In this document: positions 1,666-32,346 of the stretch, in pieces | Layout of the letters: each line of letters starts with the position of its first letter | Position numbering within the stretch: the stretch's first letter is position 1 | From: Roseovarius sp. A-2 | GTDB taxonomy: Bacteria > Pseudomonadota > Alphaproteobacteria > Rhodobacterales > Rhodobacteraceae | Direction: 5' to 3' | Length of the DNA: 64,000 nucleotides | NCBI RefSeq assembly: GCF_002072155.1 | Contig: NZ_BDIY01000019.1 | Coordinates: 1 to 64,000, forward strand | Notes under the pieces: generated by a model | Told to the model about the DNA's origin: nothing | Database searches by the model: none | What the model saw: only the letters and a program-made list of their open reading frames with translations | Program-made: the position numbers and the translations under genes

Positions 1666-2055
1666 TCAGCGTGCGGCGGGGACCATCGCCAAAGCTTCGA
1701 CCTCGACCAGAAATTCGGGTTTGGTAAAGCCTGTGACGATCAGCAACGTCGATGCAGGTTTCACCGCGTGTGCGCGCACCAAGGCATCGCGTACCGCCAT
1801 ATAAGGCGCGAAATCCTCGCGGCGGGTGACATAGCCGGTAAAGCGCATCACATGGGAAAAATCCGCACCCGCTTCGGCCAGAATGACACGGATGTTCTCA
1901 AAACACATCTCGGCCTGTTCGCGAACATCCGCCGGAATCCGGCCATCGGGCGACATCGCCAACTGGCCCGAGGTGACGATCAATTGCCCCGCCTGAACGC
2001 CGTGTTCATAGGCACCGAAGGGGGCGGGCAGGCTATCGGGTGTCAGCCCCTTCAT
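1666..2055 (-). CDS. RidA/YjgF/RutC-family protein
   Basis: Small (129-residue) RidA-family enamine/imine deaminase or related hydrolase. The start at MKGLTPDSLPAPFGAY is chosen because its ATG overlaps the stop of the upstream TetR gene as ATGA. Typical features are the PxPFGxYEHGV opening, SGQLAMSPDGRIPADVREQAE and the C-terminal EVEALAMVP. A central Arg is present (VMRFTGYVT). RidA enzymes clear reactive enamine/imine intermediates; RutC, a relative, works in pyrimidine breakdown. As the last gene of a cluster with a RutR-like regulator and two amidohydrolases, it may process an unstable amino intermediate; that is inference. Confidence 0.85.
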   Translation of the reverse strand: MKGLTPDSLPAPFGAYEHGVQAGQLIVTSGQLAMSPDGRIPADVREQAEMCFENIRVILAEAGADFSHVMRFTGYVTRREDFAPYMAVRDALVRAHAVKPASTLLIVTGFTKPEFLVEVEALAMVPAAR

Positions 2056-2681
2056 ATGCGGCGACCTTTTTCGTCCATACCGCAGCGGCGCAAGAATAGC
2101 GCGGTCGCTTCGGCAGCGATGCGGTCCGCATCCATTGGCTGGCCGTCCGGTGCTTCCATCAACATACGCACCTGTGCTTCGTATTCGGCATAGTGCTGGG
2201 TGACGGCCCACATATTAATCTGGAACAGCAGCGGATCGACGGGTGCGATCTTGCCCGCGTCGATCCATCCGCGAATGGTGTTGTTGGCATCTTCGACAGA
2301 CGCGCTCAGCGGGGCCCAATGGTCGCTCATCTCAGGTGCGCCGCGCGCCATTTCATTAGCAAAAAATCTGGATACATCAGGGTGCTCCAACGCGTGTTCG
2401 ATTTTACGCCTGATGTAATGGGTGATTGCTTCGGCGGGGTTTTCCAACGAAGAAGAGAGCGAAAATAGCTCGCGCCAGTGCGACACGATATAGCCCAGAA
2501 CGTCCTGATACAGGTCTTCTTTCGAAGTGATGTAATAGTGCAATTGCGCCTTGGATATGCCTGCCGATTTCGCAATCGCTTGTGTCGATGTACCCGCCAG
2601 ACCGTTGCGCGCGAATTCGCGGATGGCCGCATCGCGGATCGCTTCTTGAATGGCGCTGCGGCGTATCTTTGCAGTGGTCAT
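2052..2681 (-). CDS. TetR-family regulator, RutR-like
   Basis: A 209-residue TetR-family repressor. The start is MTTAKIRRSAIQEAIRDAA, because the upstream extension lacks family similarity. The N-terminal helix-turn-helix spans about residues 15-60 (FARNGLAGTSTQAIAKSAGI, then KAQLHYYITSKEDLY). The C-terminal domain, with HPDVSRFFANEMARGAP and FQINMWAVTQHYAEYEAQV, resembles that of RutR/YcdC, which senses uracil and thymine. It overlaps ridA by ATGA and lies 117 bases downstream of the ABC binding-protein gene, so it may be both cotranscribed and separately expressed. Probably it regulates this cluster in response to a heterocyclic ligand. Confidence 0.85.
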   Translation of the reverse strand: MTTAKIRRSAIQEAIRDAAIREFARNGLAGTSTQAIAKSAGISKAQLHYYITSKEDLYQDVLGYIVSHWRELFSLSSSLENPAEAITHYIRRKIEHALEHPDVSRFFANEMARGAPEMSDHWAPLSASVEDANNTIRGWIDAGKIAPVDPLLFQINMWAVTQHYAEYEAQVRMLMEAPDGQPMDADRIAAEATALFLRRCGMDEKGRRI

Positions 2682-2798
2682 GGACGGTCCTTGGGTGATC
2701 ACAGGGAAGCCTGAAATGGCAGATATAGCACAAGCTTTACCGCGCACTAGCCGGGAAAGGGTGGCGCGCAGTTGACCCACGCCGCCGCCATGTTCCAA

Positions 2799-3809
2799 TC
2801 AGTTGCTTTTCAGCGCGGCCTTAATGTCCAGCCCGTGCCCCTTGTTGACGAACTGGCTGGTGGCCACTTTGGACAGATCAACAGCGCCCTCTTCGATAAT
2901 GCCGCTGGACACGGCCAGATCGTGAAACGCCTTGATCCGCTCTTGCGACATTGCACCGATCCCGTGTTCCAGCGCATCGCCGCTGTCGATGATCTCAAGC
3001 GCCTTTAGTTGGGCCACTTCCTTGTCCAGTTTTTCGACTGTCATCTCGGGGTTGGCCGCCATGATCGCATCGTACGCGGGCGTGTGATCGCCATAGAGAA
3101 AGTTCACCCAGCCCTCAATTGTGGCATCCACGAATCGCTGGACCAATGTGGGGTTCTCGTCGATCAGTTCCTGACGGGTTTCAAGCGTAGCAGCATAGGT
3201 GTTCCAGCCGTTATCGGCCAACAGGAACACATCAACGTCGGCACCTTGAGCGCGGGCATAAATGGGTTCCGCAGTGCCATAGGCCTGTTGAACCAATCTT
3301 TCGTCGGCCAGAAACTGGGCAAGATTATAGCCGTAGGGACGCAATTGTTCGTTTTTAAAGCCTAGGGCCTGCACCATCCATTCCCAAAAGCTGAACTGCC
3401 CGTCTTTTGATACCAGCACCGTGGGCGCATCCGACAGGGCGGCGAAATCGGAGTATTGCCCTTTGTGTGTCATCAACGCTTGGGGGTCTTTTTGATAAAA
3501 CGCAGCGACGACGGTGGTCGGAATACCGTTGCGCACGTTGTCAAAGGACAGCAACAGGTTGCCTGCCATCAGAAAGTCCAACCGCCCCGCCGAGAGCATC
3601 GGACGGTTGTTGACCTGCGGACCGCCGGGGCTGATTTCAACGTCTAACCCGTATTTTTCATAGGTGCCGTCGGCCAGCGCCTGATAGAACCCGCCGTGCC
3701 CGCCTTGGGCCAGCCAGTTGGTGCCCATCACGACCTTATCGTTGGCCCATGTGACCGTGGCAGAAAGCAGTGCGCAGGCGGCGGCGAATGCTGTAACTGT
3801 CTTCTTCAT
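2799..3809 (-). CDS. ABC transporter substrate-binding protein, NMT1/ThiY-like
   Basis: 336-residue periplasmic binding protein with a signal peptide (MKKTVTAFAAACALLSATVTWA). The opening of the mature chain (TNWLAQGGHGGFYQALADG, then YEKYGLDVEI) is the NMT1/THI5-like signature of ThiY, RibY and SsuA proteins, which bind pyrimidines, riboflavin or sulfonates. GGPQVNNRPMLSAGRLDFLMAG continues the pattern. Its start overlaps the stop of the FAD-oxidase gene as ATGA, and the matching permease and ATPase lie upstream in the same operon. ThiY-like proteins usually bind a pyrimidine-type ring, which fits the deaminase-like neighbour. The ligand is not known. Confidence 0.85.
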   Translation of the reverse strand: MKKTVTAFAAACALLSATVTWANDKVVMGTNWLAQGGHGGFYQALADGTYEKYGLDVEISPGGPQVNNRPMLSAGRLDFLMAGNLLLSFDNVRNGIPTTVVAAFYQKDPQALMTHKGQYSDFAALSDAPTVLVSKDGQFSFWEWMVQALGFKNEQLRPYGYNLAQFLADERLVQQAYGTAEPIYARAQGADVDVFLLADNGWNTYAATLETRQELIDENPTLVQRFVDATIEGWVNFLYGDHTPAYDAIMAANPEMTVEKLDKEVAQLKALEIIDSGDALEHGIGAMSQERIKAFHDLAVSSGIIEEGAVDLSKVATSQFVNKGHGLDIKAALKSN

Positions 3810-5197
3810 GCTGTTTCTCCTTGTCGGTGTTGGTCATCACGGCGCGCCATATCATCGGTCCAGCCGCGTGTTTTTCCGGGGTTCATCAGGCCATATGGGT
3901 CTGCCCGTTTTTTGAAATCGATCTGTGTGGTGTCGATTTCTTTCATGCCGCCATCTTCGATGGTGACGACATGGGGATCGAAAATTGTGCATCCGTCCGT
4001 CTGTTCCAGTTCGGCAATCAGGCGGTACATCTCTTCCTTGCCGCGATAGCGGACCAGAGGCAGGGCAAAAATCTGGATGTCGCCGTCCTGTCGCGCCATT
4101 TCGTGGTGCCAGAACATCTCGTCGCCGTGGCGTGCCATCTGTCGCATCACCAGATCAACGTCGAAGGGACGCGGATAGGCAACCTGCAGATAGGTCCAGC
4201 CCGGATCAACCTTGAGCGCCTGCAAAGTGGTATGGTTCCAGCCGCATTCATAGGCTGGTTGCAGGCCCGCTTCGCGGACCTTTTCCTTGGTCATGGCAAA
4301 GGACACATGCCCGCCCTGCGCTTCGGCCTCGGCTGTGAAACGGTCCATTTCATCCGGTGCCACCATCGCAAAAATAGCGTCGCGATCAGCTGGGAACAAA
4401 TCTCCGAATTTGGTGTAATAGGGGGCAAAGCGCCGCTCTACCGCTGTCAGCAAATAGCAATCCATCCCGCCTTTTTGCGCCAGTGTCGCAAAGTTCAGAG
4501 CGCGGTCATAACCGTCAAACAGGGCGGCGGTGTGAATCCAATCGGTCTTGGGCGTCAGGGCCAGACCCATTTCCACCACGATCCCATTGGTGCCATAGGC
4601 GTGCTGCACCTTCTGGATGTCGTCGCCGTGCAGTTCGATCACCTGTGGCTCTTTCTCAACGGTGATCACTTTGACATAGCTGACATTTCCCGGATCGCGC
4701 AGCATCCCGTGACGCAGCGATCCGATGCCGCCCGACCCACCTGCCAGAAATCCGCCAATCGTCGCCATCTGGCGGGTTGACGGGTACATCAGCAACTCTT
4801 GTCCGGTTTCGTGCGCTGCATCGTCCAGCCGCGAAATCCGCGCGCCAGCCTGTGTGCGCACATGGCCTTGGGTGATCTCCAGCACCTTATCCAGACGGGT
4901 TAAATCCATGATCACCCCGCCCTCCATCGGTACGCACTGGCCATAGTTTCCAGTTCCGCCACCGCGCAAAGTCAGGGGCAGTTTGTATTTGGCGATCAGC
5001 CCTGCCACCTTTATCACTTCCTCGACCGATTGCGGGACGACCAGCAGCTCTCCCAGTTTGTCGGTGAGTTGGTCGTTCAGGATCGGGCTGTACCAGAAAT
5101 AGTCGTGCGAGCGTGCTTCCAGATGTTTTTGGCCATCGTGAAAGCGAATGCCACCAAGTGCGGACTTAAAGTTATTCAGATCGGAAGTGCGGGACAT
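3806..5197 (-). CDS. FAD-linked oxidase (PCMH/GlcD type)
   Basis: 463-residue flavoprotein of the vanillyl-alcohol-oxidase/GlcD fold. The N-terminal PCMH FAD-binding domain shows LTLRGGGTGNYGQCVPMEGG (pyrophosphate-binding loop), ATIGGFLAGGSGGIGSLRHG and the following Tyr-rich strand; the C-terminal substrate cap ends near DPYGLMNPGKTRGW. I take the ATG at 5197, which overlaps the upstream amidohydrolase stop as TGATG; a TTG one codon earlier is possible. It presumably oxidises or hydroxylates a pathway intermediate. Its place between a deaminase-like enzyme and a binding protein suggests it acts on the transported compound. The substrate cannot be read from sequence. Confidence 0.85.
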   Translation of the reverse strand: MSRTSDLNNFKSALGGIRFHDGQKHLEARSHDYFWYSPILNDQLTDKLGELLVVPQSVEEVIKVAGLIAKYKLPLTLRGGGTGNYGQCVPMEGGVIMDLTRLDKVLEITQGHVRTQAGARISRLDDAAHETGQELLMYPSTRQMATIGGFLAGGSGGIGSLRHGMLRDPGNVSYVKVITVEKEPQVIELHGDDIQKVQHAYGTNGIVVEMGLALTPKTDWIHTAALFDGYDRALNFATLAQKGGMDCYLLTAVERRFAPYYTKFGDLFPADRDAIFAMVAPDEMDRFTAEAEAQGGHVSFAMTKEKVREAGLQPAYECGWNHTTLQALKVDPGWTYLQVAYPRPFDVDLVMRQMARHGDEMFWHHEMARQDGDIQIFALPLVRYRGKEEMYRLIAELEQTDGCTIFDPHVVTIEDGGMKEIDTTQIDFKKRADPYGLMNPGKTRGWTDDMARRDDQHRQGETA

Positions 5198-6375
5198 CAA
5201 AGGTCTCCATGAAAAGGGGACAAAACCGCACCGTCACGCCAGACACGCCGCACAGCAGAGGGGCGGCTGATCACATCGTTCAGGTCGGTTGCGTCAAAGT
5301 GGATGAAATCGGCAGGACCGCCAGAGCGAAGGCTCAGGTCGTGGCCCATCCATGCGGCGGGCCGTGCGCTGATCCCGTCCAGCCAGTCTTCGGGTGGCAG
5401 ATGACCCATCAGCACGCCCATTCTCAAAACGTCGATCAGGTCGTAGTCGCCATAAGGAAAGAACCCATCGCGCACATTGTCCGACCCGAGCATGACCGGA
5501 ACGCCAGCGGCGGCGGCCTCTCGTAAGGGCGCAAGACCCCGCAGACGGGGGGTGCGGCCTGGACCTGCATCCTGAAGATAGCTGTTGGCACCGGGCAGGA
5601 CGGTCAGGCCGATGCCCGCTTCGGCGGCGCGACCCAGCAGGGTTTCAACCTCGGCAGGGTCGCGCACGGACAGCGCACAGCCGTGTCCGCAAAGCACACG
5701 ACTCGCCATGCCGCGCCGTGCGGTCTCGTCGATGATCGCGTCGATGCCTTGCGCCTCTGTGTCCAGACCTTCATCGACGTGAAAGTCAAGATGCAGGTCG
5801 TGGGTCTCGGCCAGATCAAAAACGGTCTTGAGATGCGTTGCCAGATCATCGTTGCGATAGACAAAGGCCCCCAGAATGCCACCGTCACGACGTAAGGCCG
5901 GTGCGATGTCAGCCCCTATCCGGGCCAGATCATCCAGAGCCGTCAGCGACGACAGTTGCAGATCGACCCGCCCACGCCAATCCTGCGCCAGTTCGTTCAG
6001 AACGTGCCAGCTGCGCGGTGCATCGGCGTGGGACCAATCCACGTGGCTGCGCATCAGAGCTGTGCCGTGGTGATAGGCCTTGGCCAGTCCCTCTGTCGCG
6101 CGGTTGCGTAGATCCTCGTCGGTCCAGCGGGTCGCGTCCTGCCCCATAATCTCAATCGCATCAAACAGCGATTGCGCCCGATGCGGCATGCGCGGCGCTG
6201 TCATGGTTTTGTCCAGATGGGTGTGCACATCCGCCAACAGCGGCATCACGTATCCGCCGCCGCCCGTGGGCGTAGGACGCAGCGCCGTAATGCGCCCCGC
6301 CTCCTGCTCTAGATCCCAAAAGCCGCTTTGTCCGGCCAGAGTGATGCCTTGCAACCTTGCACGCTTGTCGGTCAT
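5197..6375 (-). CDS. Cytosine-deaminase-like amidohydrolase
   Basis: 392-residue metal-dependent amidohydrolase of the CodA/cytosine deaminase group. Metal and catalytic motifs are in order: HTHLDK, then DFHVDE (His plus catalytic Glu), then CGHGCALS, then GSDNVRDGF (metal Asp). The start is MTDKRARLQGITL, five bases after the permease stop. CodA relatives deaminate cytosine, isoguanine, creatinine or N-heterocycles, or hydrolyse related cyclic amides. Gene order with a creatininase-family enzyme and a ThiY-like transporter suggests a cyclic, nitrogen-rich substrate, but no specific one can be assigned. Confidence 0.85.
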   Translation of the reverse strand: MTDKRARLQGITLAGQSGFWDLEQEAGRITALRPTPTGGGGYVMPLLADVHTHLDKTMTAPRMPHRAQSLFDAIEIMGQDATRWTDEDLRNRATEGLAKAYHHGTALMRSHVDWSHADAPRSWHVLNELAQDWRGRVDLQLSSLTALDDLARIGADIAPALRRDGGILGAFVYRNDDLATHLKTVFDLAETHDLHLDFHVDEGLDTEAQGIDAIIDETARRGMASRVLCGHGCALSVRDPAEVETLLGRAAEAGIGLTVLPGANSYLQDAGPGRTPRLRGLAPLREAAAAGVPVMLGSDNVRDGFFPYGDYDLIDVLRMGVLMGHLPPEDWLDGISARPAAWMGHDLSLRSGGPADFIHFDATDLNDVISRPSAVRRVWRDGAVLSPFHGDL

Positions 6376-6380
6376 CAAAA

Positions 6381-7226
6381 TTAGCCCTCGCGCTTTATCT
6401 CGCTCTCGTGCCAGTGGCCAAGAACGGCGCGGGACAGCCACGCGGTGCTCAGGAAAATACTAACGCCCAGGACCGACACCAGAAACAATGCGGCAAACAT
6501 GCGGGGAATCTCGTTACGAAAGCTGGACTCAAGGATACGCGACGCAAGGCCGGTGTTCTGTCCCGCGGTGCCTGCCACAAACTCGGCCACCACCGCGCCA
6601 ATCAACGCCAGCCCGCCCGCAATTTTCAGGGCGGCCATGAAATAGGGCAATGCCGTCGGGATCAGCAGATAGCGCAGACGCTGCCATGGCGTTGCCTGAT
6701 ACAAGCGAAACATATCGCGCAGGTTATGGTCGGCACTGCGCAACCCGATGGCCGTGTTCGACAGGATCGGGAAAAACGCCACGATCCACGCACAGATCAG
6801 CAGGGCGGCGAACGTATTGCTGACATAGATCAGGATCAGCGGCGCAATGGCCACCACCGGCGTGACCTGAAGGATTACGGCAAAGGGAAACAGGCTCATT
6901 TCAATCGGGCGCGACAGGGCGAACAACATGCCCAAGACCACACCGCCGACAATTGCCAGAGCCAAGGCCATCAGCGTCAGCTTGACGGTAAACATCGCGC
7001 TTTGCATCAGGCTGGCCCCGTCTGTCACCAATGTTTTGGCAATCAGGCTGGGGGCGGGGATCAGGTAGTGCGGCACGTCATTGTACCAGACCAGAAATTC
7101 CCACACCCCCAGCGCAAAGGTGATCGCAGCAAGGGGCAGGATGTAGCGCAATCGCTGTTCACGGCGTTCGCGAATAATGCGCGGGTCCAGCTGTGCGGCG
7201 GGGGATTCAGTGGTTAAGGTCGACAT
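6381..7226 (-). CDS. ABC transporter permease (SsuC/RibX/ThiX type)
   Basis: 281-residue inner-membrane permease of the nitrate/sulfonate/taurine and pyrimidine-precursor ABC family. About six membrane segments are visible, and the EAA-loop region is FRLYQATPWQRLRYLLIPTALPYF. The start MSTLTTESP lies within the last 20 bases of the ATPase gene, so the two are translationally linked. It would pair with the ATPase at 7207-8013 and the binding protein at 2799-3809, although the three are separated by two enzyme genes. Such interleaving of transporter and enzyme genes argues for one uptake-and-degradation pathway. Confidence 0.87.
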   Translation of the reverse strand: MSTLTTESPAAQLDPRIIRERREQRLRYILPLAAITFALGVWEFLVWYNDVPHYLIPAPSLIAKTLVTDGASLMQSAMFTVKLTLMALALAIVGGVVLGMLFALSRPIEMSLFPFAVILQVTPVVAIAPLILIYVSNTFAALLICAWIVAFFPILSNTAIGLRSADHNLRDMFRLYQATPWQRLRYLLIPTALPYFMAALKIAGGLALIGAVVAEFVAGTAGQNTGLASRILESSFRNEIPRMFAALFLVSVLGVSIFLSTAWLSRAVLGHWHESEIKREG

Positions 7227-8013
7227 GGTCCATGGTCCCTTCCAGTGCTGTGCTGACACTGCGGCAGCTTTCTGCGTATTCCGGTGACATGCGGTAGGCC
7301 GCGTTGCGTGGATATCTCCCGCTGAGCGCTATATCATGCACCACACGTCCCGGACGGGCGGCCATGACAGTGACGCGGCTGGACAAATACACGGATTCAA
7401 ACACTGAGTGGGTCACAAAGATCACCGTCAGACCCAGCGATTTCCACAGGGACAGAACCTCGTCATTCAGCTTGGTGCGCGACATCTCGTCCAGCGCGGC
7501 AAAGGGTTCGTCCATCAGCAGCAGCTTGGGTTTTGTCACCATAGCGCGGGCGATGGAGACGCGCATCTTCATGCCGCCCGACAGTTCGCGCGGGTATGAT
7601 TTGGCAAAGTTTGCCAGCCCCACCATCGACAACGCCTCTTCGACACGGGTGCGGGCTTCGGCCTTGCTGACGCCTTGCAGTTTCAGCGGTAGATTGACGT
7701 TTTCAAAGACCGTGGCCCATGGCATCAACGTTGCCTCCTGAAAGACAAAGCCGATGTCGCTGCCTGTTGTGCTTTCGCCCGGACGGTGTCCGTTAACGGT
7801 GATTGTGCCTGCCGAGACCGACAACAGCCCCGAGATCATTTTCAATGCCGTGCTTTTTCCACACCCCGACGGGCCGAGGAAGCTGACAAATTCGCCTTGC
7901 CGGATCGTCAGTGACATATCTCGCACGGCGACGGTGCCATTGCCGAACCGTTTGTCGACATTGCGCATGTCGATCAGCGGCGTGTCGCCTTCGGGGGCTG
8001 GGATGGGTGTCAT
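7207..8013 (-). CDS. ABC transporter ATP-binding protein (SsuB/ThiZ type)
   Basis: 268-residue ATPase with Walker A GPSGCGKST, Q-loop VFQEATLMPW, signature ELSGGMKMRVSIARA, Walker B LLLMDEPFAALD and switch His in VTHSVFES. The LSGGM-K variant and PxLLLMDEPFAALDE are typical of nitrate/sulfonate/thiamine-pyrimidine importers. The start is three bases after the creatininase-family gene, and the 3' end overlaps the permease start by 20 bases. It powers the importer formed with the permease and the ThiY-like binding protein. Confidence 0.88.
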   Translation of the reverse strand: MTPIPAPEGDTPLIDMRNVDKRFGNGTVAVRDMSLTIRQGEFVSFLGPSGCGKSTALKMISGLLSVSAGTITVNGHRPGESTTGSDIGFVFQEATLMPWATVFENVNLPLKLQGVSKAEARTRVEEALSMVGLANFAKSYPRELSGGMKMRVSIARAMVTKPKLLLMDEPFAALDEMSRTKLNDEVLSLWKSLGLTVIFVTHSVFESVYLSSRVTVMAARPGRVVHDIALSGRYPRNAAYRMSPEYAESCRSVSTALEGTMDHVDLNH

Positions 8014-8016
8014 TGC

Positions 8017-8817
8017 TCAGACCTCCGGTTTGCTGTGCAGCCAGTCGGCTGGCATCGCGTCAATTTCGGCCATCGCCTCGGCCAGACGCGCAACCGCGTG
8101 ATCCAGCGTGGCTTCGCCCTTTTCGGCAGTGGCCAGATGCGCCTCGCCGCAGGCACCCGAGGGGCTAAGATCCTGGGTCTTCCACGCAGGCTTGCCCGCA
8201 CGGCTTAGGCCCAGATGAGTGGTTCCCTCGAACAAATCCTGCCCGCGCGACCGGAAATTGCGGGCTTGGGTCATGTCCACATTGTCCCCATCCAACGCCA
8301 GCATCACAGATGTTTCCATATCGCCTGCGTGAATGCCGTGGGTGCGTTCGGTTTCAGAATACACCCCGTCCGGCATGCCAAATCCGAACCAGTTCACCGA
8401 AAACACCAGCATATCGTGAGAGATACGCAATTGCCGCGCGGCTATGTCCATTACCGGAATGTTGCCGCCATGCCCGTTCAGCAGTACCAACTTGCGCACA
8501 CCCGCCCGCGCCACGCTAGCGCCGATTTCGCTCAGAATGCGGATCAGCGTTTCCGCCGTCAGCGTGAGGGTGCCCGGAAAGTCGATATGTTCGTCACTTT
8601 TGCAAATGGCCTGTGTGGGTAGAAAAATCACCGGGCTTTCATCGGGCAGAGCATCGGCCAATCGGTGCGCCACGCCTGTCACGGTGCAACTGTCAACGGA
8701 CATCGGCAGATGCGGCCCGTGCTGTTCAATCGCCCCGATAGGCAGAACCGCGATCAAGCGTTCGTGGTCGAGCGCCGCAAATTCACGCTGGCTGTGATCG
8801 GCCCAGAAACGTTTCAT
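8017..8817 (-). CDS. Creatininase-family amidohydrolase
   Basis: 266-residue protein of the creatininase (creatinine amidohydrolase) family. Metal-site motifs are all present: LPIGAIEQHGPHLPMSVD (Glu, His, Asp), LLNGHGGN and HAGDMETS (His, Glu). The start MKRFWADHS is preceded by AGGG; an upstream in-frame extension lacks family similarity. The family includes creatininase, formamidopyrimidine deformylases and other cyclic-amide hydrolases. It is the first gene of the leftward cluster, so the cluster promoter should lie between 8818 and about 9060. The combination with a cytosine-deaminase-like enzyme suggests two successive amide or amidine hydrolyses. Confidence 0.85.
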   Translation of the reverse strand: MKRFWADHSQREFAALDHERLIAVLPIGAIEQHGPHLPMSVDSCTVTGVAHRLADALPDESPVIFLPTQAICKSDEHIDFPGTLTLTAETLIRILSEIGASVARAGVRKLVLLNGHGGNIPVMDIAARQLRISHDMLVFSVNWFGFGMPDGVYSETERTHGIHAGDMETSVMLALDGDNVDMTQARNFRSRGQDLFEGTTHLGLSRAGKPAWKTQDLSPSGACGEAHLATAEKGEATLDHAVARLAEAMAEIDAMPADWLHSKPEV

Positions 8818-9064
8818 ATCGTCACCCTGCAGGCGTGTAAATGATTGCAGAAATTCGTCATGCGCCCCCCGTGTTTCAGGCAAACATAGCCATCGTCATA
8901 CCAAGCGGTCAAACTGTTCGTTCAGGCTTTTCAAGGTCTGCGCGTGGTCACCGCTTGGTTTGCCTGAAAAAGCAACAAATTACGCGGGACGATGGTATAG
9001 GATAGCCAAATTGGAGAGGGGATCAGTGACTTCGAATATTCAAAAACGGTCAATTTATAGGGCC

Positions 9065-9176
9065 GTTGGTATAAGCTGAGAACCTCATCACGCACCCCAC
9101 CACCGGTAATTGCAACTGCCAGCTTGTCCTTCGAAACGCCGATCCCGGCATGGATCGTCGATTGTTCTTTTGTCAT
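9065..9176 (-). pseudogene. IS110-family transposase N-terminal remnant
   Basis: About 37 codons starting MTKEQSTIHAGIGVSKDKLAVAI match the opening of IS110-family transposases, whose first catalytic Asp normally sits in GIDVSK. Here that residue is Gly (GIGVSK), so the remnant is dead as well as truncated. The frame runs on to 8931 in sequence unlike any transposase. It is a relic of an earlier insertion in front of the creatininase-led operon. Confidence 0.55.
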
Positions 9177-9503
9177 GCCTTTCTCCACCGCAAATAGACA
9201 GCGCTTGCCGCCATGCGATCAGAATGCAGGCTGAACCGTCATGCGCGCGCCGCTGGAGATAGGCATGCGGTCTTACAAGCGTCTATGCTTTGCCGATGCC
9301 GAAAGGGGCGGCGATTGGTTGTGGCGTACCTGGGATTGAGTGGCGTAACGGTGGTCCGATGAGTTCAAGCACGCCAGTAGATCAAGACGTTTCTAACGCG
9401 TCGGCTTCGGTCAAGTTTTCGTGATGCCTTGTTAGGTGACACTTTACCCTGAATGTGGTCTCGCTCGCCTTTGAAATGTTGTCTGTGAAGTGGAGATAAT
9501 GTG
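9177..9503. other. Intergenic region, no gene seen
   Basis: About 330 bases between the IS110 relic and the metallo-beta-lactamase gene. Reading both strands I find no frame with recognisable protein character. The last 60 bases should contain the promoter of the rightward gene, whose ribosome-binding site TGGAGA is visible at about 9491. Confidence 0.4.
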
Positions 9504-11114
9504 ATGGGTGTAAGACGGCTTTTTGCGCGCGCCAAGAATGTCGAAGCAGACCCATCAGGGTCAGAGACCGGACACTACATTCGATCTGTCATCGACCATG
9601 TGCCGCACGCATTTTCGATAGGGCCTTTTCTGGTGGTGGCGCTGTTTTTCTCCGTATCCAGTGCGAGCGCAGAAGGCCGGTCTGTTCGCGATCAGACCTT
9701 GCAAGCTTTGGGCGGTCTTCCTGCGCTTACAGCGGTCAAGGCCGTGGAAATCAAAGGAAGTGGTTCAAATTTCGAGCCCTTCGAGAATGTCGTGAGCGAA
9801 ACACCCATCCACACATCCGATGATACAACTCAAGTCACCTGGCAGCCCGCATCGGGCGAATTTCACCGTGAGGTCGGCCTGCAGACAGCATTTCCCTTTC
9901 CCGGACATTGGGATTTTGTCGAAATCTTTGACGGTACAAGGGGATATCGAAACGGCAGGGACGGTTTTCGCCCCAGTACGGGCGGGATACTGGCGCCTGC
10001 GCGTATCGGAGCCACGCAAAAGGATATCTGGCTGCTCAACCCGCAATTCCTTGTGGCCTATGCCGAGGCGGTTTCCGAGAGGGCAGGATCAACCGGCGCG
10101 GATCAATATCGGCTGGCTCTGAAATTGCCCGATGCGGGCACCGTCTGGACTGTCGATCTGGATCACGCAACGATGCTACCCCGCCGGATTACCGTGACGG
10201 AAACAGATCCGCTTCTCGGTCAGGTGAAAGTTACCGCGAGCTATGATGATTGGCGGGCCGTCGCAGGGATCAAAACGCCGTTCCGGATTGCCAAACATGT
10301 CGATGGCGCATTGGTGCGCCGCGAGATCCGGGACGATATCAGCTACTCGCAAACTAACCTTGCGGGCCGGTTTTCCATTCCCGAAGGGCAGGGTGCGCCC
10401 GATGACACGGGTGACCTGTATGACTGGGGTTGGGACATGTCACATTGGTTTCTGCGCCGGGCGGGCATGGCGGCCCCGGCGGATGAGGATCAATCTTCAG
10501 ATGTCGGGTTTCTCGAGGTCGGCAATGGCGTTTTTCAGATCACCGGGAGCAGTCACCATAATCTCGTGATTGAAGGCTCTGCCGGATTGATCATCGTCGA
10601 CGCACCGCTTTATGATCGCCGCTCAAGAGCCGTCTTGCGCGCCCTCAAAGAGCGGTGGCCCGGTAAGCCGGTTACGCAGCTCGTCCTGACCCATCACCAC
10701 AATGACCATGTTGGTGGTCTTCAGCCCTATATCTCTGCGGGCGCTGAATTGGTCGTACCCGCCGGCACCAGAGACCTCTTTGACGATGTTGTGAAAAGAA
10801 CGCTTGGTGTCTCCGCTGAAATCACGGCTGTGACAGAACATGCGACGCTGGCCGGATCTGGGCGAGATGTGGCATTATACACGGTGCCAAACTCCCATGC
10901 CAACGACATGCTTGTCGTGTATCTGCCTTCCGAGCGCTTACTGTTCAACAGTGACCTGTTCTCGCCGGGGCGCGATACCCAACACCCGCTTTGGGCTGGT
11001 GAATTACTTGCCGCGATCCGCTTTCTGAACCTCGATGTTGCCAATATCGTCGGCGGGCACGGCCATGGAGCCGAGCCGTTACAGGCCCTTGAGAGAGCCG
11101 TCTCCGCGCAGTAG
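9504..11114 (+). CDS. Exported metallo-beta-lactamase-fold hydrolase
   Basis: 536-residue protein with an N-terminal hydrophobic export segment (about residues 35-58, ending SSASA). A region of about 230 residues resembling periplasmic lipoprotein-carrier-like beta folds follows (QALGGLPALTAVKAVEIKG), then a C-terminal metallo-beta-lactamase domain. The latter has the zinc motif LTHHHNDHVGG, a His in TVPNSHANDMLVVYLP, the metal-bridging Asp in LLFNSDLFSPG, and GGHGHG. I take the ATG at 9504 after GGAGA; a GTG one codon earlier is possible. Proteins of this architecture are hydrolases of unknown substrate, and nothing marks it as an antibiotic-resistance enzyme. A small membrane-protein gene follows 46 bases later. 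Confidence 0.8.
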   Translation: MGVRRLFARAKNVEADPSGSETGHYIRSVIDHVPHAFSIGPFLVVALFFSVSSASAEGRSVRDQTLQALGGLPALTAVKAVEIKGSGSNFEPFENVVSETPIHTSDDTTQVTWQPASGEFHREVGLQTAFPFPGHWDFVEIFDGTRGYRNGRDGFRPSTGGILAPARIGATQKDIWLLNPQFLVAYAEAVSERAGSTGADQYRLALKLPDAGTVWTVDLDHATMLPRRITVTETDPLLGQVKVTASYDDWRAVAGIKTPFRIAKHVDGALVRREIRDDISYSQTNLAGRFSIPEGQGAPDDTGDLYDWGWDMSHWFLRRAGMAAPADEDQSSDVGFLEVGNGVFQITGSSHHNLVIEGSAGLIIVDAPLYDRRSRAVLRALKERWPGKPVTQLVLTHHHNDHVGGLQPYISAGAELVVPAGTRDLFDDVVKRTLGVSAEITAVTEHATLAGSGRDVALYTVPNSHANDMLVVYLPSERLLFNSDLFSPGRDTQHPLWAGELLAAIRFLNLDVANIVGGHGHGAEPLQALERAVSAQ

Positions 11115-15539: not shown

Positions 15540-16454
15540 CTAGGCGTCGGGAGCAAGCTCTTTTAAAGGGACAATTGCCCCTTTGTGCCGGATCACCTGA
15601 CCTGCGCAATTCTGTGCAGTGCGGATCGCATCCTTGATCGACAGCCCCCGCAGGAGCGACGCGATGTAAGCGCCGTTAAAGGAATCTCCGGCGGCGGTTG
15701 TGTCCACGACCCCCTCAACCGGTGCAACCGGAAACGCCGTCATCTGGCCTGCCTGAAGATGGATCGTGTCGGATGCGCCATTCTTGACCACGACATGATC
15801 CACACCCAGATTGGCATACCGCCTTGCACTGATTTCAGGCGTGGCGTCTCCAAAAGCTGTCGCCTCGTCATCGAAACTTGGCAGGACAAGATCGCTTTGC
15901 GTTGCAGCACGTGTTATGACATCCAGCATCCGGTTTTTATCCTGCCACAGATGGGGGCGGATGTTGGGGTCAAAGGCCAGAACCGCGCCGTCCTTCTTAT
16001 GCTGCTCTAACCCGACTAGCAGGTCTTCCAGGTCCTCCTGCGGCAGGATCGCCAGCGTGATGCCCGAAAAATAGATAACATCCGCCGCCGCAACCTTGCG
16101 CCAAAGCGAACCGGGCTGACGCACCATCATCCGCGCGGCGGACGTGTCGCGCCAATAGGTAAAGCTGCGCTCTGCCCCGTGCAGGTGGATCGTATAAAGC
16201 CCCGGACGGCGATCTGCGATGCGCGGTGTGTCGTCACATCTGATCCCGCAGGATTGCACAAACGACAGCAATTGATCTGACATCGGATCGGTGCCGACAG
16301 CGGTATGAAACCCGATTTCCGTGTCGTTGAGGGAATGTGCCCGCGCGTACCACAAGGAATTGAAAACATCGCCCGAGAATTTCTGCCGCCACAGATCCCG
16401 CCCCTCGGAGGACAGTTCGATCATGCATTCGCCAATGCCGAGAATGGAAGTCAT
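15540..16454 (-). CDS. kdgK: 2-keto-3-deoxygluconate kinase (PfkB family)
   Basis: 304-residue sugar kinase of the PfkB/ribokinase family. The N-terminal GIGECMIELS and the ATP/anion-hole motif DTTAAGDSFNGAYIAS with the catalytic Asp are clear; the substrate-side FDPNIRPHLW is typical of KDG kinases. It phosphorylates 2-keto-3-deoxygluconate for cleavage by the KDPG aldolase, which is not in the window. Its ATG overlaps the stop of uxuA as ATGA, so dehydratase and kinase are made together. It converges on dctM with a three-base gap. Confidence 0.88.
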   Translation of the reverse strand: MTSILGIGECMIELSSEGRDLWRQKFSGDVFNSLWYARAHSLNDTEIGFHTAVGTDPMSDQLLSFVQSCGIRCDDTPRIADRRPGLYTIHLHGAERSFTYWRDTSAARMMVRQPGSLWRKVAAADVIYFSGITLAILPQEDLEDLLVGLEQHKKDGAVLAFDPNIRPHLWQDKNRMLDVITRAATQSDLVLPSFDDEATAFGDATPEISARRYANLGVDHVVVKNGASDTIHLQAGQMTAFPVAPVEGVVDTTAAGDSFNGAYIASLLRGLSIKDAIRTAQNCAGQVIRHKGAIVPLKELAPDA

Positions 16455-17650
16455 TGCAACGGGTTCCTGTCAGGTGCGGTAAGGGGATGATCGGCGACTG
16501 CAGAAAACGCAGCCCACGCGCCTCTGAGTTCAGCCAGCCCTTTCAGGCGGCCAAGATACGAATAGCCGGGATTGGTTTTCTGGTCCCGCTCGAATGCCAG
16601 AAGGTGGCCGTGGTCAGGGCGCATGGGAATGTTGCGGGCGGGATCTGCCCGTTCAGCCTGCCAAAGGGCTGCAAGCACGCCAAGCATCTCGGCGCTGCCA
16701 TCCAGAACCGCTGCCTCAAAGAAACTGCCGTCCGCCTCACGTTGAACATTGCGCAGATGCGCAAAATGGATCTGTCCCGCAAACCTGTGCGCCATCGCGG
16801 GCAAATCGTTGTCGGCCCGCGCCCCCAGCGAGCCTGTGCAAAACGTCAGACCATTTGCCGGGCTGGGCTGGGCAGCAAGCAGAAACGCCAGATCATCAGC
16901 GGTAGAGACGCAGCGTGGCAAGCCAAATAATGGAAACGGAGGATCATCGGGGTGGATGGCCAGACGGACGCCCAATGCCTCGGCTTCGGGAACCACAGCC
17001 TCAAGAAATGATGCGAGGTTTGCTTGTAAATCGCTGTGGGACAGCGATGAGAAGTCGTCGATCCCGGCGGCCAGATCGGCGCGCGCAAAGCCTTTTGCAC
17101 TGCCGGGCAGGCCCGCGATGATGTTACGCTCAAGTGCCGCCTGCGCGTCCGGGGACATCTGGCGCCATCTGGTCTGCGCCGCTGTCAGCAAATCAGACGC
17201 ATGATCCGCCGCCGCATTTTCGCGGGCCAGAATGTGCACATCGTAGACCACGAAATCAACCATATCAAAGCGCAGGGCCTGCCCTTGTCCGGGCAGATCA
17301 AACGCCAGATCGGTGCGGGTCCAATCCAGCAGCGGCATGAAGTTGTAGCAGATCGTTTTCACCCCTGCGCCGGCGAGATGGCGCATCGTGTCAATCCACG
17401 CCGCGATTTCCGCCTGCGCCGCGCGGCCGTTCAGCTTGATCGCATCCGGCATCAAGATCGACTCGCACACATCCCATGTCAGCCCGCCGGCCTCTATCAG
17501 GGCTTTGCGGGTGTCTATGTCCGCGCGCGACCAGATCGCGCCGGGGGCGTATTCGTGCAGGGCCGTGACCACGCCGGTCGCCCCGGCCTGCCGAATGTTG
17601 TTCAAAGTGACCGGATCATCCGGACCAAACCAACGCCACGTTTGTTTCAT
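16451..17650 (-). CDS. uxuA: Mannonate dehydratase
   Basis: 399 residues, the normal UxuA length. UxuA converts D-mannonate to 2-keto-3-deoxygluconate in glucuronate breakdown. Family signatures are MKQTWRWFGPDDPV, YNFMPLLDWTRTDL, LAIHPDDPPFPLFGLPR, FCTGSLGAR and IPMRPDHGH, with the metal-binding His and Cys residues in place. It overlaps kdgK. Upstream on the same strand is only a cut dctM tail and copy 3 of the IS6-derived element, so the native promoter has probably been lost and expression may depend on the element. Confidence 0.93.
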   Translation of the reverse strand: MKQTWRWFGPDDPVTLNNIRQAGATGVVTALHEYAPGAIWSRADIDTRKALIEAGGLTWDVCESILMPDAIKLNGRAAQAEIAAWIDTMRHLAGAGVKTICYNFMPLLDWTRTDLAFDLPGQGQALRFDMVDFVVYDVHILARENAAADHASDLLTAAQTRWRQMSPDAQAALERNIIAGLPGSAKGFARADLAAGIDDFSSLSHSDLQANLASFLEAVVPEAEALGVRLAIHPDDPPFPLFGLPRCVSTADDLAFLLAAQPSPANGLTFCTGSLGARADNDLPAMAHRFAGQIHFAHLRNVQREADGSFFEAAVLDGSAEMLGVLAALWQAERADPARNIPMRPDHGHLLAFERDQKTNPGYSYLGRLKGLAELRGAWAAFSAVADHPLTAPDRNPLQ

Positions 17651-31299: not shown

Positions 31300-32346
31300 T
31301 CATGTTACGCTGATCCGGGGGTTGAGATAGACATATCCGATATCCGATATCAGTTGCGTCACCAGCACGACAACGACGGACACCACCGACACGGCGAGCA
31401 GCAGCTCGATATCGTTGTTGCTCGCCGCCTGAACCAGCGTCCAGCCGAAGCCCTTGTAGTTGAACAGCGTCTCGACGATCACCACGCCGTTCAGCAGCCA
31501 CGGGAATTGCAGCATGATCACCGTGAAGGGTGCGATCAGTGCATTCCTCAGCGCGTGTTTCATCACGATATTGGGGAAACTCACCCCCTTGAGCCGGGCG
31601 GTGCGGATATATTGCGCGGTCATCACCTCGGCCATCGAGGCGCGGGTCATCCGCGCGATATAGCCCATCCCATAGAGCGCGATGGTCAGCACCGGAAGAA
31701 AGAAATTCTCGAAGGTCGGGTTCTCCATCGCGCTGGTCGCCGTGCCCTTGAACCATCTGAGGCCCACGGCGGTGCTGGCGAAGACCGCGATGAACAGCAC
31801 GCCCGAGACATATTCCGGCGTCGCCGTGGTGGTGATCGCTAAGGTCGAGAGCGTCCGGTCGGTGCGCGAGCCTTCACGCATCCCCGCCATGACGCCCAGG
31901 ATCAGCGCCGATGGCACCATCAAGAGCATCACCCAGAACATCAGTCGTCCGGTCAGTGCCAGCTTTTCGCCGATGATCTCGCCCACGTCCTTCTTGAACA
32001 CGGTGGAATGGCCCCAATGGCCCTGCAGGATGCCGCAGAAACGCGGGGCCTCTTCGGCTGGCGTGTCGGGGCCGATGCAACGCCCGCGCAGGGTGCCGTC
32101 CTCGGCCTGGGTTGTCCAGCCGGGCAACACGCCCATCCATTGCCCGTATTTGACCGGCAGCGGCTCAAGATAGCCGTTGCGCCCGAGATAGCTGGCTACC
32201 TCCTCATCGGTCATGCGGAAATTGCCCTGTGTCTTGGCCAGTTTTTCGAGATTGGGATAGAGGTTCGTCAGGAAGAAGACGACAAACGTCAGGCATAGCG
32301 CAGTCAGGATCATAACCCCGAGCCTGCGCAGGATAAACATGGCCAT
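31300..32346 (-). CDS. Oligopeptide ABC transporter permease (DppB type)
   Basis: 348-residue permease starting MAMFILRRLGVMILTALCLT. Hallmarks are FILRRLGVMI, the EAA region TARLKGVSFPNIVMKHALRN and a final DLGYVYLNPRISV-like end (DIGYVYLNPRISVT). A long periplasmic loop (residues about 40-130) contains GYLEPLPVKYGQWMG. First gene of the leftward transporter operon. No DppA-type gene is upstream; ald begins 127 bases away on the same strand. Confidence 0.87.
   Translation of the reverse strand: MAMFILRRLGVMILTALCLTFVVFFLTNLYPNLEKLAKTQGNFRMTDEEVASYLGRNGYLEPLPVKYGQWMGVLPGWTTQAEDGTLRGRCIGPDTPAEEAPRFCGILQGHWGHSTVFKKDVGEIIGEKLALTGRLMFWVMLLMVPSALILGVMAGMREGSRTDRTLSTLAITTTATPEYVSGVLFIAVFASTAVGLRWFKGTATSAMENPTFENFFLPVLTIALYGMGYIARMTRASMAEVMTAQYIRTARLKGVSFPNIVMKHALRNALIAPFTVIMLQFPWLLNGVVIVETLFNYKGFGWTLVQAASNNDIELLLAVSVVSVVVVLVTQLISDIGYVYLNPRISVT

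Follow-up and report, generated by a model that had tools for sequence, protein, structure and literature searches.

What compound is imported and broken down by an operon that combines a creatininase-family hydrolase, a cytosine-deaminase-like hydrolase, a flavin adenine dinucleotide (FAD)-dependent oxygenase, a Rid protein, an ATP-binding cassette (ABC) importer and a TetR-family regulator? Such a set of eight genes, all on the minus strand, runs from position 8817 to 1666 of a 64,000-nucleotide stretch of Roseovarius sp. A-2 DNA (NCBI RefSeq assembly GCF_002072155.1, contig NZ_BDIY01000019.1, positions 1 to 64,000 of the forward strand; hereafter the window). An original prediction made from the letters alone had described it as one unit for the catabolism of an imported nitrogen heterocycle, with parallels to the Rut pyrimidine pathway. 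That observation is confirmed and the gene set indeed suits such a catabolism, while the interpretation as a whole is partly supported. The main lead was absent from that prediction: the FAD enzyme closely resembles 6v42, a structure linked to folate breakdown, and so points to a definite class of candidate substrates. Because of this resemblance the imported compound may be a pterin. Our favoured reading, for which we regard the case as evenly balanced, is a regulated operon that takes up a pteridine (a pterin or a fragment of folate), or a compound very similar to one, and degrades its ring.

The operon and its conservation

The families, assigned by Pfam, agree with those originally named:

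8017..8817, minus strand: creatininase-family metal amidohydrolase (PF02633, 2.8e-73; 246.7 bits against a gathering cut-off of 31.3)
7207..8013, minus strand: ABC transporter ATPase (PF00005, 3.3e-37)
6381..7226, minus strand: ABC transporter permease (PF00528, 4.3e-24; start placed by a 20-base overlap)
5197..6375, minus strand: cytosine-deaminase-like amidohydrolase, a predicted deaminase (PRK07583, 325.8 bits, below the cut-off of 403)
3806..5197, minus strand: FAD-dependent oxidase/oxygenase (FAD_binding_4), relative of 6v42 (phmmer, 1.2e-117; model Z 46.6)
2799..3809, minus strand: NMT1/ThiY-type substrate-binding protein (PF09084, 2.2e-18; model Z 29.3 to 4nmy)
2052..2681, minus strand: TetR-family regulator with YcdC/RutR-type C-terminus, RutR-like but not RutR (PF08362, 4.1e-32)
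1666..2055, minus strand: Rid protein with Ser at the position of the catalytic Arg (PF01042, 8e-25; alignment to YjgF, 1qu9)

As read from the sequence, the creatininase and ATPase genes are 3 bases apart and the permease and amidohydrolase genes 5 bases; the ATPase and permease genes overlap by 20 bases, the amidohydrolase and FAD genes by TGATG, and the FAD and binding-protein genes as well as the regulator and Rid genes by ATGA. The claim that most junctions overlap or span 3-5 bases holds as made, the sole loose junction being the 117 bases between the binding-protein and regulator genes. Together with conserved synteny, these junctions support a single operon.

Conservation of the set was followed in 139 loci annotated with locally built profiles. 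In a scan with one genome per species, 94 encoded relatives of the FAD protein were found, and the best 80 loci were kept. A locus was eligible if the FAD gene had 6.5 kb or more of flank on both sides, and neighbours were counted within 8 kb. The creatininase, amidohydrolase and permease genes accompany the FAD gene in 58/60 scan loci, 9/10 plasmid loci and 20/36 loci from wider genome searches, the last belonging to 49 deliberately selected among the matches. The complete set of eight gene kinds occurs in 47/60, 2/10 and 9/36 loci, respectively; when 19 near-clonal Brucella/Ochrobactrum loci are left out of the scan, the three-gene core is found in 39/41 and the full set in 29/41. Hence, relatives keep the genes together; their scattering was one of the outcomes that the original prediction had named as fatal to it. 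The locus-to-locus distances of six families correlate pairwise with r = 0.65-0.94 (for each of the 15 pairs, 0/200 label permutations reached the observed value), partly due to the shared ancestry of the species. The conservation of the eight genes is far beyond chance.

Within the genus, the operon is sporadic. A homologue at E<=1e-30 occurs in 1/59 other genomes of the same genus. More widely, presence is patchy: 4/100 relatives and at least 19/385 Alphaproteobacteria, the own genome counted in both, and at least 40/299 genomes of one betaproteobacterial family; the last two counts are lower bounds, since scoring covered the first 4-5 candidates of each genome. Two Pseudosulfitobacter plasmid records carry homologues at 91%. 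This sporadic occurrence and the plasmid-borne homologues make horizontal acquisition of the operon likely.

Around the conserved set, the loci vary. A Flavodoxin_2 NAD(P)H reductase is added in 27/60 eligible scan loci and a ferredoxin reductase likewise in 27/60 (8/41 without the near-clonal loci), while an AceE-like thiamin diphosphate (ThDP) enzyme adjoins the module in 13/60 (e.g. L013:14088-16481) and an Lrp-type regulator is found in some. The own genome holds a 79% identical copy of the AceE-like ThDP enzyme on another contig (C7:29327-31672). PDR-type reductases are added in some betaproteobacterial clusters, Rieske oxygenases at some loci, and the module of Klebsiella pneumoniae and Pantoea plasmids (L131, L132) comes with a PDR/VanB reductase and a LysR regulator. 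Such added enzymes may mark different entry substrates. The FAD enzyme itself occurs as two or three paralogues in tandem or in duplicated modules (L160, L126, L158, L127), as if the substrate range had been widened by duplication.

Grouping of 670 flanking open reading frames (ORFs), most of them unannotated, gave no extra family common to more than seven loci. Threonate/erythronate-type genes beside L093, L094 and L105 appeared suggestive at first, but are not shared more widely. A 5'-nucleotidase-like protein is encoded in or beside one module (L105:7906-9717), with similar ORFs at L156 and L157, and an AtzE-family amidase (696 bits) near another (L161:9463-10857), with similar ORFs at L029 and L163. 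A second set in the own genome (L101, contig C8, ~99-109 kb) contains a creatininase-family protein, an NMT1-type importer, LysR-like, agmatinase-like and PuuE-like genes, and a PRK07572-type cytosine deaminase that scores above its cut-off (604.7 bits).

The FAD enzyme and its relative 6v42

The best solved relative of the FAD protein is 6v42 (E 1.2e-117 over residues 11-448, phmmer), whose Protein Data Bank (PDB) title reads 'Crystal structure of the flavin oxygenase with cofactor bound involved in folate catabolism'. The similarity spans the full length and extends to the fold: an AlphaFold model based on 37 members of the family (mean predicted local distance difference test score, pLDDT, 87.5) superimposes on 6v42 with Z 46.6 and a root-mean-square deviation of 2.2 over 445 residues at 41% identity, compared with Z 30.7 for the next entry. 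Moreover, 86 of the 101 residues invariant in the 37 family members are unchanged in 6v42. An oxidative flavoenzyme, as originally proposed for this set, is supported.

In a quick tree of 121 rows, some of them long-branched (including L134), 6v42 falls into a clade of seven with SH-aLRT (approximate likelihood-ratio test) support of 99, and the window enzyme into a separate, well-supported clade. The six other rows of the 6v42 clade (L096, L128, L134, L135, L151 and one of two L152 copies) all have creatininase, amidohydrolase and permease genes within 9 kb; the best matches found for 6v42, at 66-69% identity (L096, G098, G552, G698), lie in the same clade. As members of the 6v42 clade carry the same module as the window clade, the module probably predates the split between them, and a transfer of function from one to the other is plausible. 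Gene-content labels are unclustered on this tree (36 changes against a shuffled mean of 34.8, with 369/500 shuffles as low), several rows labelled as lacking the creatininase gene being short contigs.

The window enzyme thus shares with 6v42/6v43 its fold, length and most family-invariant residues, and the nearest relatives found for 6v42 sit in the same gene module. In contrast, the Rhizobium and Agrobacterium relatives near 6v42 come with LysR regulators (L096, L135 and L136, the last being the pRL12 homologue of Rhizobium johnstonii 3841) and a Flavodoxin_2 reductase, whereas the window operon encodes a RutR-like TetR protein and no reductase.

Partner enzymes, importer and regulator

The creatininase-like protein shares with its family the PF02633 domain and the metal-site pattern: E31, H33, D42, H116 and E168, which we take to have the usual metal-ligand roles, are invariant in 29 sequences. 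It nevertheless scores below all four NCBIfam cut-offs that it matched (creatininase, MftE, IolN and ArfB), with 107.3 against the curated 235 for creatininase (TIGR04448), and reads NGHGGN in place of the NGHYEN of creatininase 1q3k. Similarly, the amidohydrolase has the fold and the HxH, HxxE, H and D residues of cytosine deaminase and AtzC-like enzymes, H51, H53, H199, E202, H231 and D299 being invariant in 28 sequences and forming a complete metal and proton-shuttle set if, as we presume, their roles are those of CodA. However, it misses the cytosine deaminase cut-off (PRK07583), and among PDB entries it resembles N-isopropylammelide hydrolase as well as cytosine deaminase. No Gln stands in the column of the substrate-binding Gln of Escherichia coli CodA, presumably Q156. 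At L126, a PF00383 nucleobase-type deaminase adjoins a module without a detected amidohydrolase gene, as though the one deaminase had taken the place of the other; this one clear case hints that deamination is the needed step.

For the Rid protein, the alignment comprises the window and 104 loci, 21 near-clonal Brucellaceae rows included. The catalytic-Arg column holds Ser in 104/105 sequences and Ala in 1/105, and Arg solely in the reference, E. coli YjgF (1qu9); none of the 105 has the Arg105 (RidA numbering) that marks RidA imine deaminases, and both Rid types at these loci, which form two sequence groups, are without it. According to Niehaus et al. (PMC4433059), imine hydrolysis cannot proceed without this Arg, Ser is found in about 10% of RidA proteins, and the Arg-less subfamilies Rid4-Rid7 are called unknown in function; PMC8113886 describes the RutC variant R104A as inactive. 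With a RutC score (TIGR03610) of 28.9 against a cut-off of 169.1 and Ser in place of the catalytic Arg, the RutC-like RidA of the original prediction has to be given up, and the Arg replacement makes an ordinary role as 2-imino-acid deaminase unlikely.

The model of the substrate-binding protein (pLDDT 91.8) has as its closest solved structures 4nmy with bound thiamin (Z 29.3) and 3ix1, an aminopyrimidine binder (Z 28.1); further behind come SsuA (Z 21.2), the pyrroloquinoline quinone-binding PqqT (20.9) and TauA (18.2). The predicted fold is thus closest to ThiY-type binders. A plain sulfonate importer was rejected on the SsuA score (TIGR01728, 28.5 against a curated 163.5) and the predicted fold; this covers in part the tight sulfonate binding that would have undone the original prediction. 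The importer shares the NMT1/Thi5 fold of ThiXYZ/ThiY systems and has their thiamin- and aminopyrimidine-bound members as nearest solved structures, yet identity is 17-18% and no thiamin pyrophosphate (TPP) riboswitch was found at gathering thresholds in the four sources scanned (window, L013, L041, L096). On these four sources, thiamin salvage of the kind marked by this riboswitch was rejected.

The regulator resembles RutR (3loc, 2.1e-31) and has the RutR-type C-terminus; in this respect its description as RutR-like stands, but it remains far under the RutR equivalog cut-offs (TIGR03613, 150.6 against 368; PRK15008, 127.1 against 230). Upstream of the operon, three elements were recognized:

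8896..8915, minus strand: operator-like site AGTTTGACCGCTTGGTATGA, overlapping the -35 hexamer (pattern match and similar sites in relatives)
8883..8912, minus strand: promoter-like hexamers TTGACC-18-TATGTT (9/12 matches)
8814..8861, minus strand: predicted leader mini-ORF of 15 codons; a G-rich run precedes its start codon, and its TGA stop overlaps the start codon of the creatininase gene (ATGA)

The operator-like site reads AGTTTGACC-NN-TTG-N-TATGA (8915-8896) and resembles what we take to be the RutR box, TTGACCANNTGGTCAA. RutR motifs vary by taxon, as stated in PMC5343134. The pattern has a single match in the window (0.02 expected) and, at up to three mismatches, a single match in the genome, compared with four for the reversed control pattern; similar sites lie 5' of the creatininase gene in relatives. 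Of the 100 upstream regions scanned, 42 reach 15 bits or more (10 trained the matrix, 21 are near-clonal Brucellaceae and 11 are neither), and 41 of these 42 loci also have a RutR-like gene. The score of -8.5 for L095 comes from a wrongly placed upstream region, and the site exists there. Both the regulator and the operator-like site resemble the RutR system only loosely. Since the promoter and terminator scan overall found no more sites than in shuffles, the promoter-like pair rests on its conservation. The leader layout, with 15-18 codons and an unconserved peptide, recurs in the window and 11 close relatives, whereas no frame of that length came out for L015, L023-L025 and L084; the test covers ATGA-type starts, many distant loci have no assigned start, and Brucellaceae with their TTG/GTG starts are effectively uncovered.

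Candidate substrates and their meaning

From these families and folds we infer a substrate and an order of steps. A ThiY-type ABC importer would take up the compound, the amidohydrolase could strip a ring amino group (pterin to lumazine type), and the 6v42-related FAD enzyme could oxidize the ring, before the creatininase-like metal hydrolase opens its lactam. Conceivably, the task of the Ser-type Rid protein is to deal with a reactive nitrogen intermediate without the alpha-carboxylate that the usual Arg binds, and the TetR regulator may repress the promoter at 8915-8896 until substrate or product is bound. The operon works like an oxidative heterocycle pathway and, by the tests made, is no member of the Rut pathway. 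That the substrate class is a pteridine is suggested by one PDB title, the module context and the importer fold, and we would put equal weight on its being right or wrong.

Several points weigh against a pteridine. The relative 6v42 is about 41-44% identical to the window enzyme, belongs to another clade, and has its role given here by the entry title; its source gene neighbourhood was not found, the best matches reaching 47% in the 299 betaproteobacterial-family genomes and 69% in the 385 Alphaproteobacteria with the first 4-5 candidates per genome scored. Neither a tetrahydrofolate (THF) nor a TPP riboswitch was detected in the four sources named above, and none of the 670 mostly unannotated flanking ORFs was conspicuous as a p-aminobenzoyl-glutamate gene or as otherwise plainly specific to folate. 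Known pterin deaminases apparently belong to another amidohydrolase family, and the PDB matches of the amidohydrolase at E<=0.001 include no entry named as one. A CDA-type deaminase was found within 8 kb in just 2/106 eligible loci, L126 being the one examined. The link between site and regulator is not general, as 33/58 loci without a strong upstream site still have a RutR-like gene. Finally, Rieske or PDR enzymes accompany some of the clusters, so different clades may have different substrates.

The main rival is that the same chemistry acts on another amino-heterocycle, such as an aminopyrimidine derived from thiamin, a nucleobase with a methyl group or another modification, or a compound resembling an aminotriazine, in a diversified FAD family of which the 6v42 clade alone is folate-linked. 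We grant it a substantial chance, though short of even. The thiamin- and aminopyrimidine-bound neighbours of the binding protein would fit, as would the twofold resemblance of the amidohydrolase, the clade-wise variation in extra enzymes and regulators, the AtzE amidase near L161 and the 5'-nucleotidase-like gene at L105 with its counterparts at L156 and L157. Set against these are the lack of a TPP riboswitch in the four sources scanned, the recurrence of the core set across clades, and folate catabolism as the only experimental label met in the FAD family. A Rut-like route for uracil or thymine, with the FAD enzyme in place of RutA, is in turn very improbable. The operon has in common with the E. 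coli system (RutABCDEFG/RutR) a TetR protein with the YcdC/RutR-type C-terminus and a box-like upstream site, a Rid family member and ring catabolism in general, but differs in its ABC importer and in a Rid protein without the Arg that RutC needs; uracil, moreover, offers the deaminase no amino group. The absence of RutA, claimed originally, was borne out for the whole genome, where the best score is 25.3 bits against a cut-off of 498.3. On the RutA, RutC and RutR cut-offs and the Ser-type Rid protein, a Rut variant was rejected, and the proposed parallel as a whole largely fails. Use of creatinine, N-methylhydantoin or hydantoin, suggested by the creatininase-family protein, appears more improbable still: the low creatininase score and the NGHGGN motif led us to reject true creatinine use, and we know of no role for an FAD enzyme of this kind in the known creatinine routes.

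The original statement that no described pathway has exactly this set is uncontradicted: among the matches listed in a literature search that left subscription journals mostly uncovered, there was no paper on 6v42 or the eight-gene set, and the text of PMC8238504 contains neither 'folate' nor 'creatininase'.

Elsewhere in the window, an 80-codon frame without a Pfam match lies 5' of the operon (8937-9176, minus strand) and by eye resembles the start of an IS110-type transposase. A metallo-beta-lactamase-fold protein weakly similar to quinoprotein relay zinc hydrolases is encoded at 9501-11114 (plus strand). A PfkB kinase and a UxuA mannonate dehydratase (15540-17650, minus strand) possibly form a uronate operon, several tripartite ATP-independent periplasmic (TRAP) solute-binding proteins are encoded, and a match to the Ruegeria cis52 small RNA family is found at 31545-31723 (plus strand, 163.8 bits).

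That bacteria can degrade the pteridine ring was established biochemically decades ago, and few genes have been assigned to the process. Going beyond the favoured reading, one may imagine a widespread, as yet unassigned route of pteridine ring opening among Proteobacteria of marine and soil habitats, in which Ser-type Rid proteins do a reaction that Arg-type ones cannot, for example hydrolysis of a cyclic imine or of a peroxide intermediate from the flavin oxygenase; this we hold to be possible but doubtful. If a pteridine is indeed the substrate, a gene set of Rhodobacterales, Rhizobiales, Brucellaceae, SAR116 and Burkholderiales would become readable as vitamin and pterin turnover in sea and soil, and functions could be assigned to one subfamily each of the creatininase and cytosine-deaminase-like proteins as well as to Arg-less Rid proteins.

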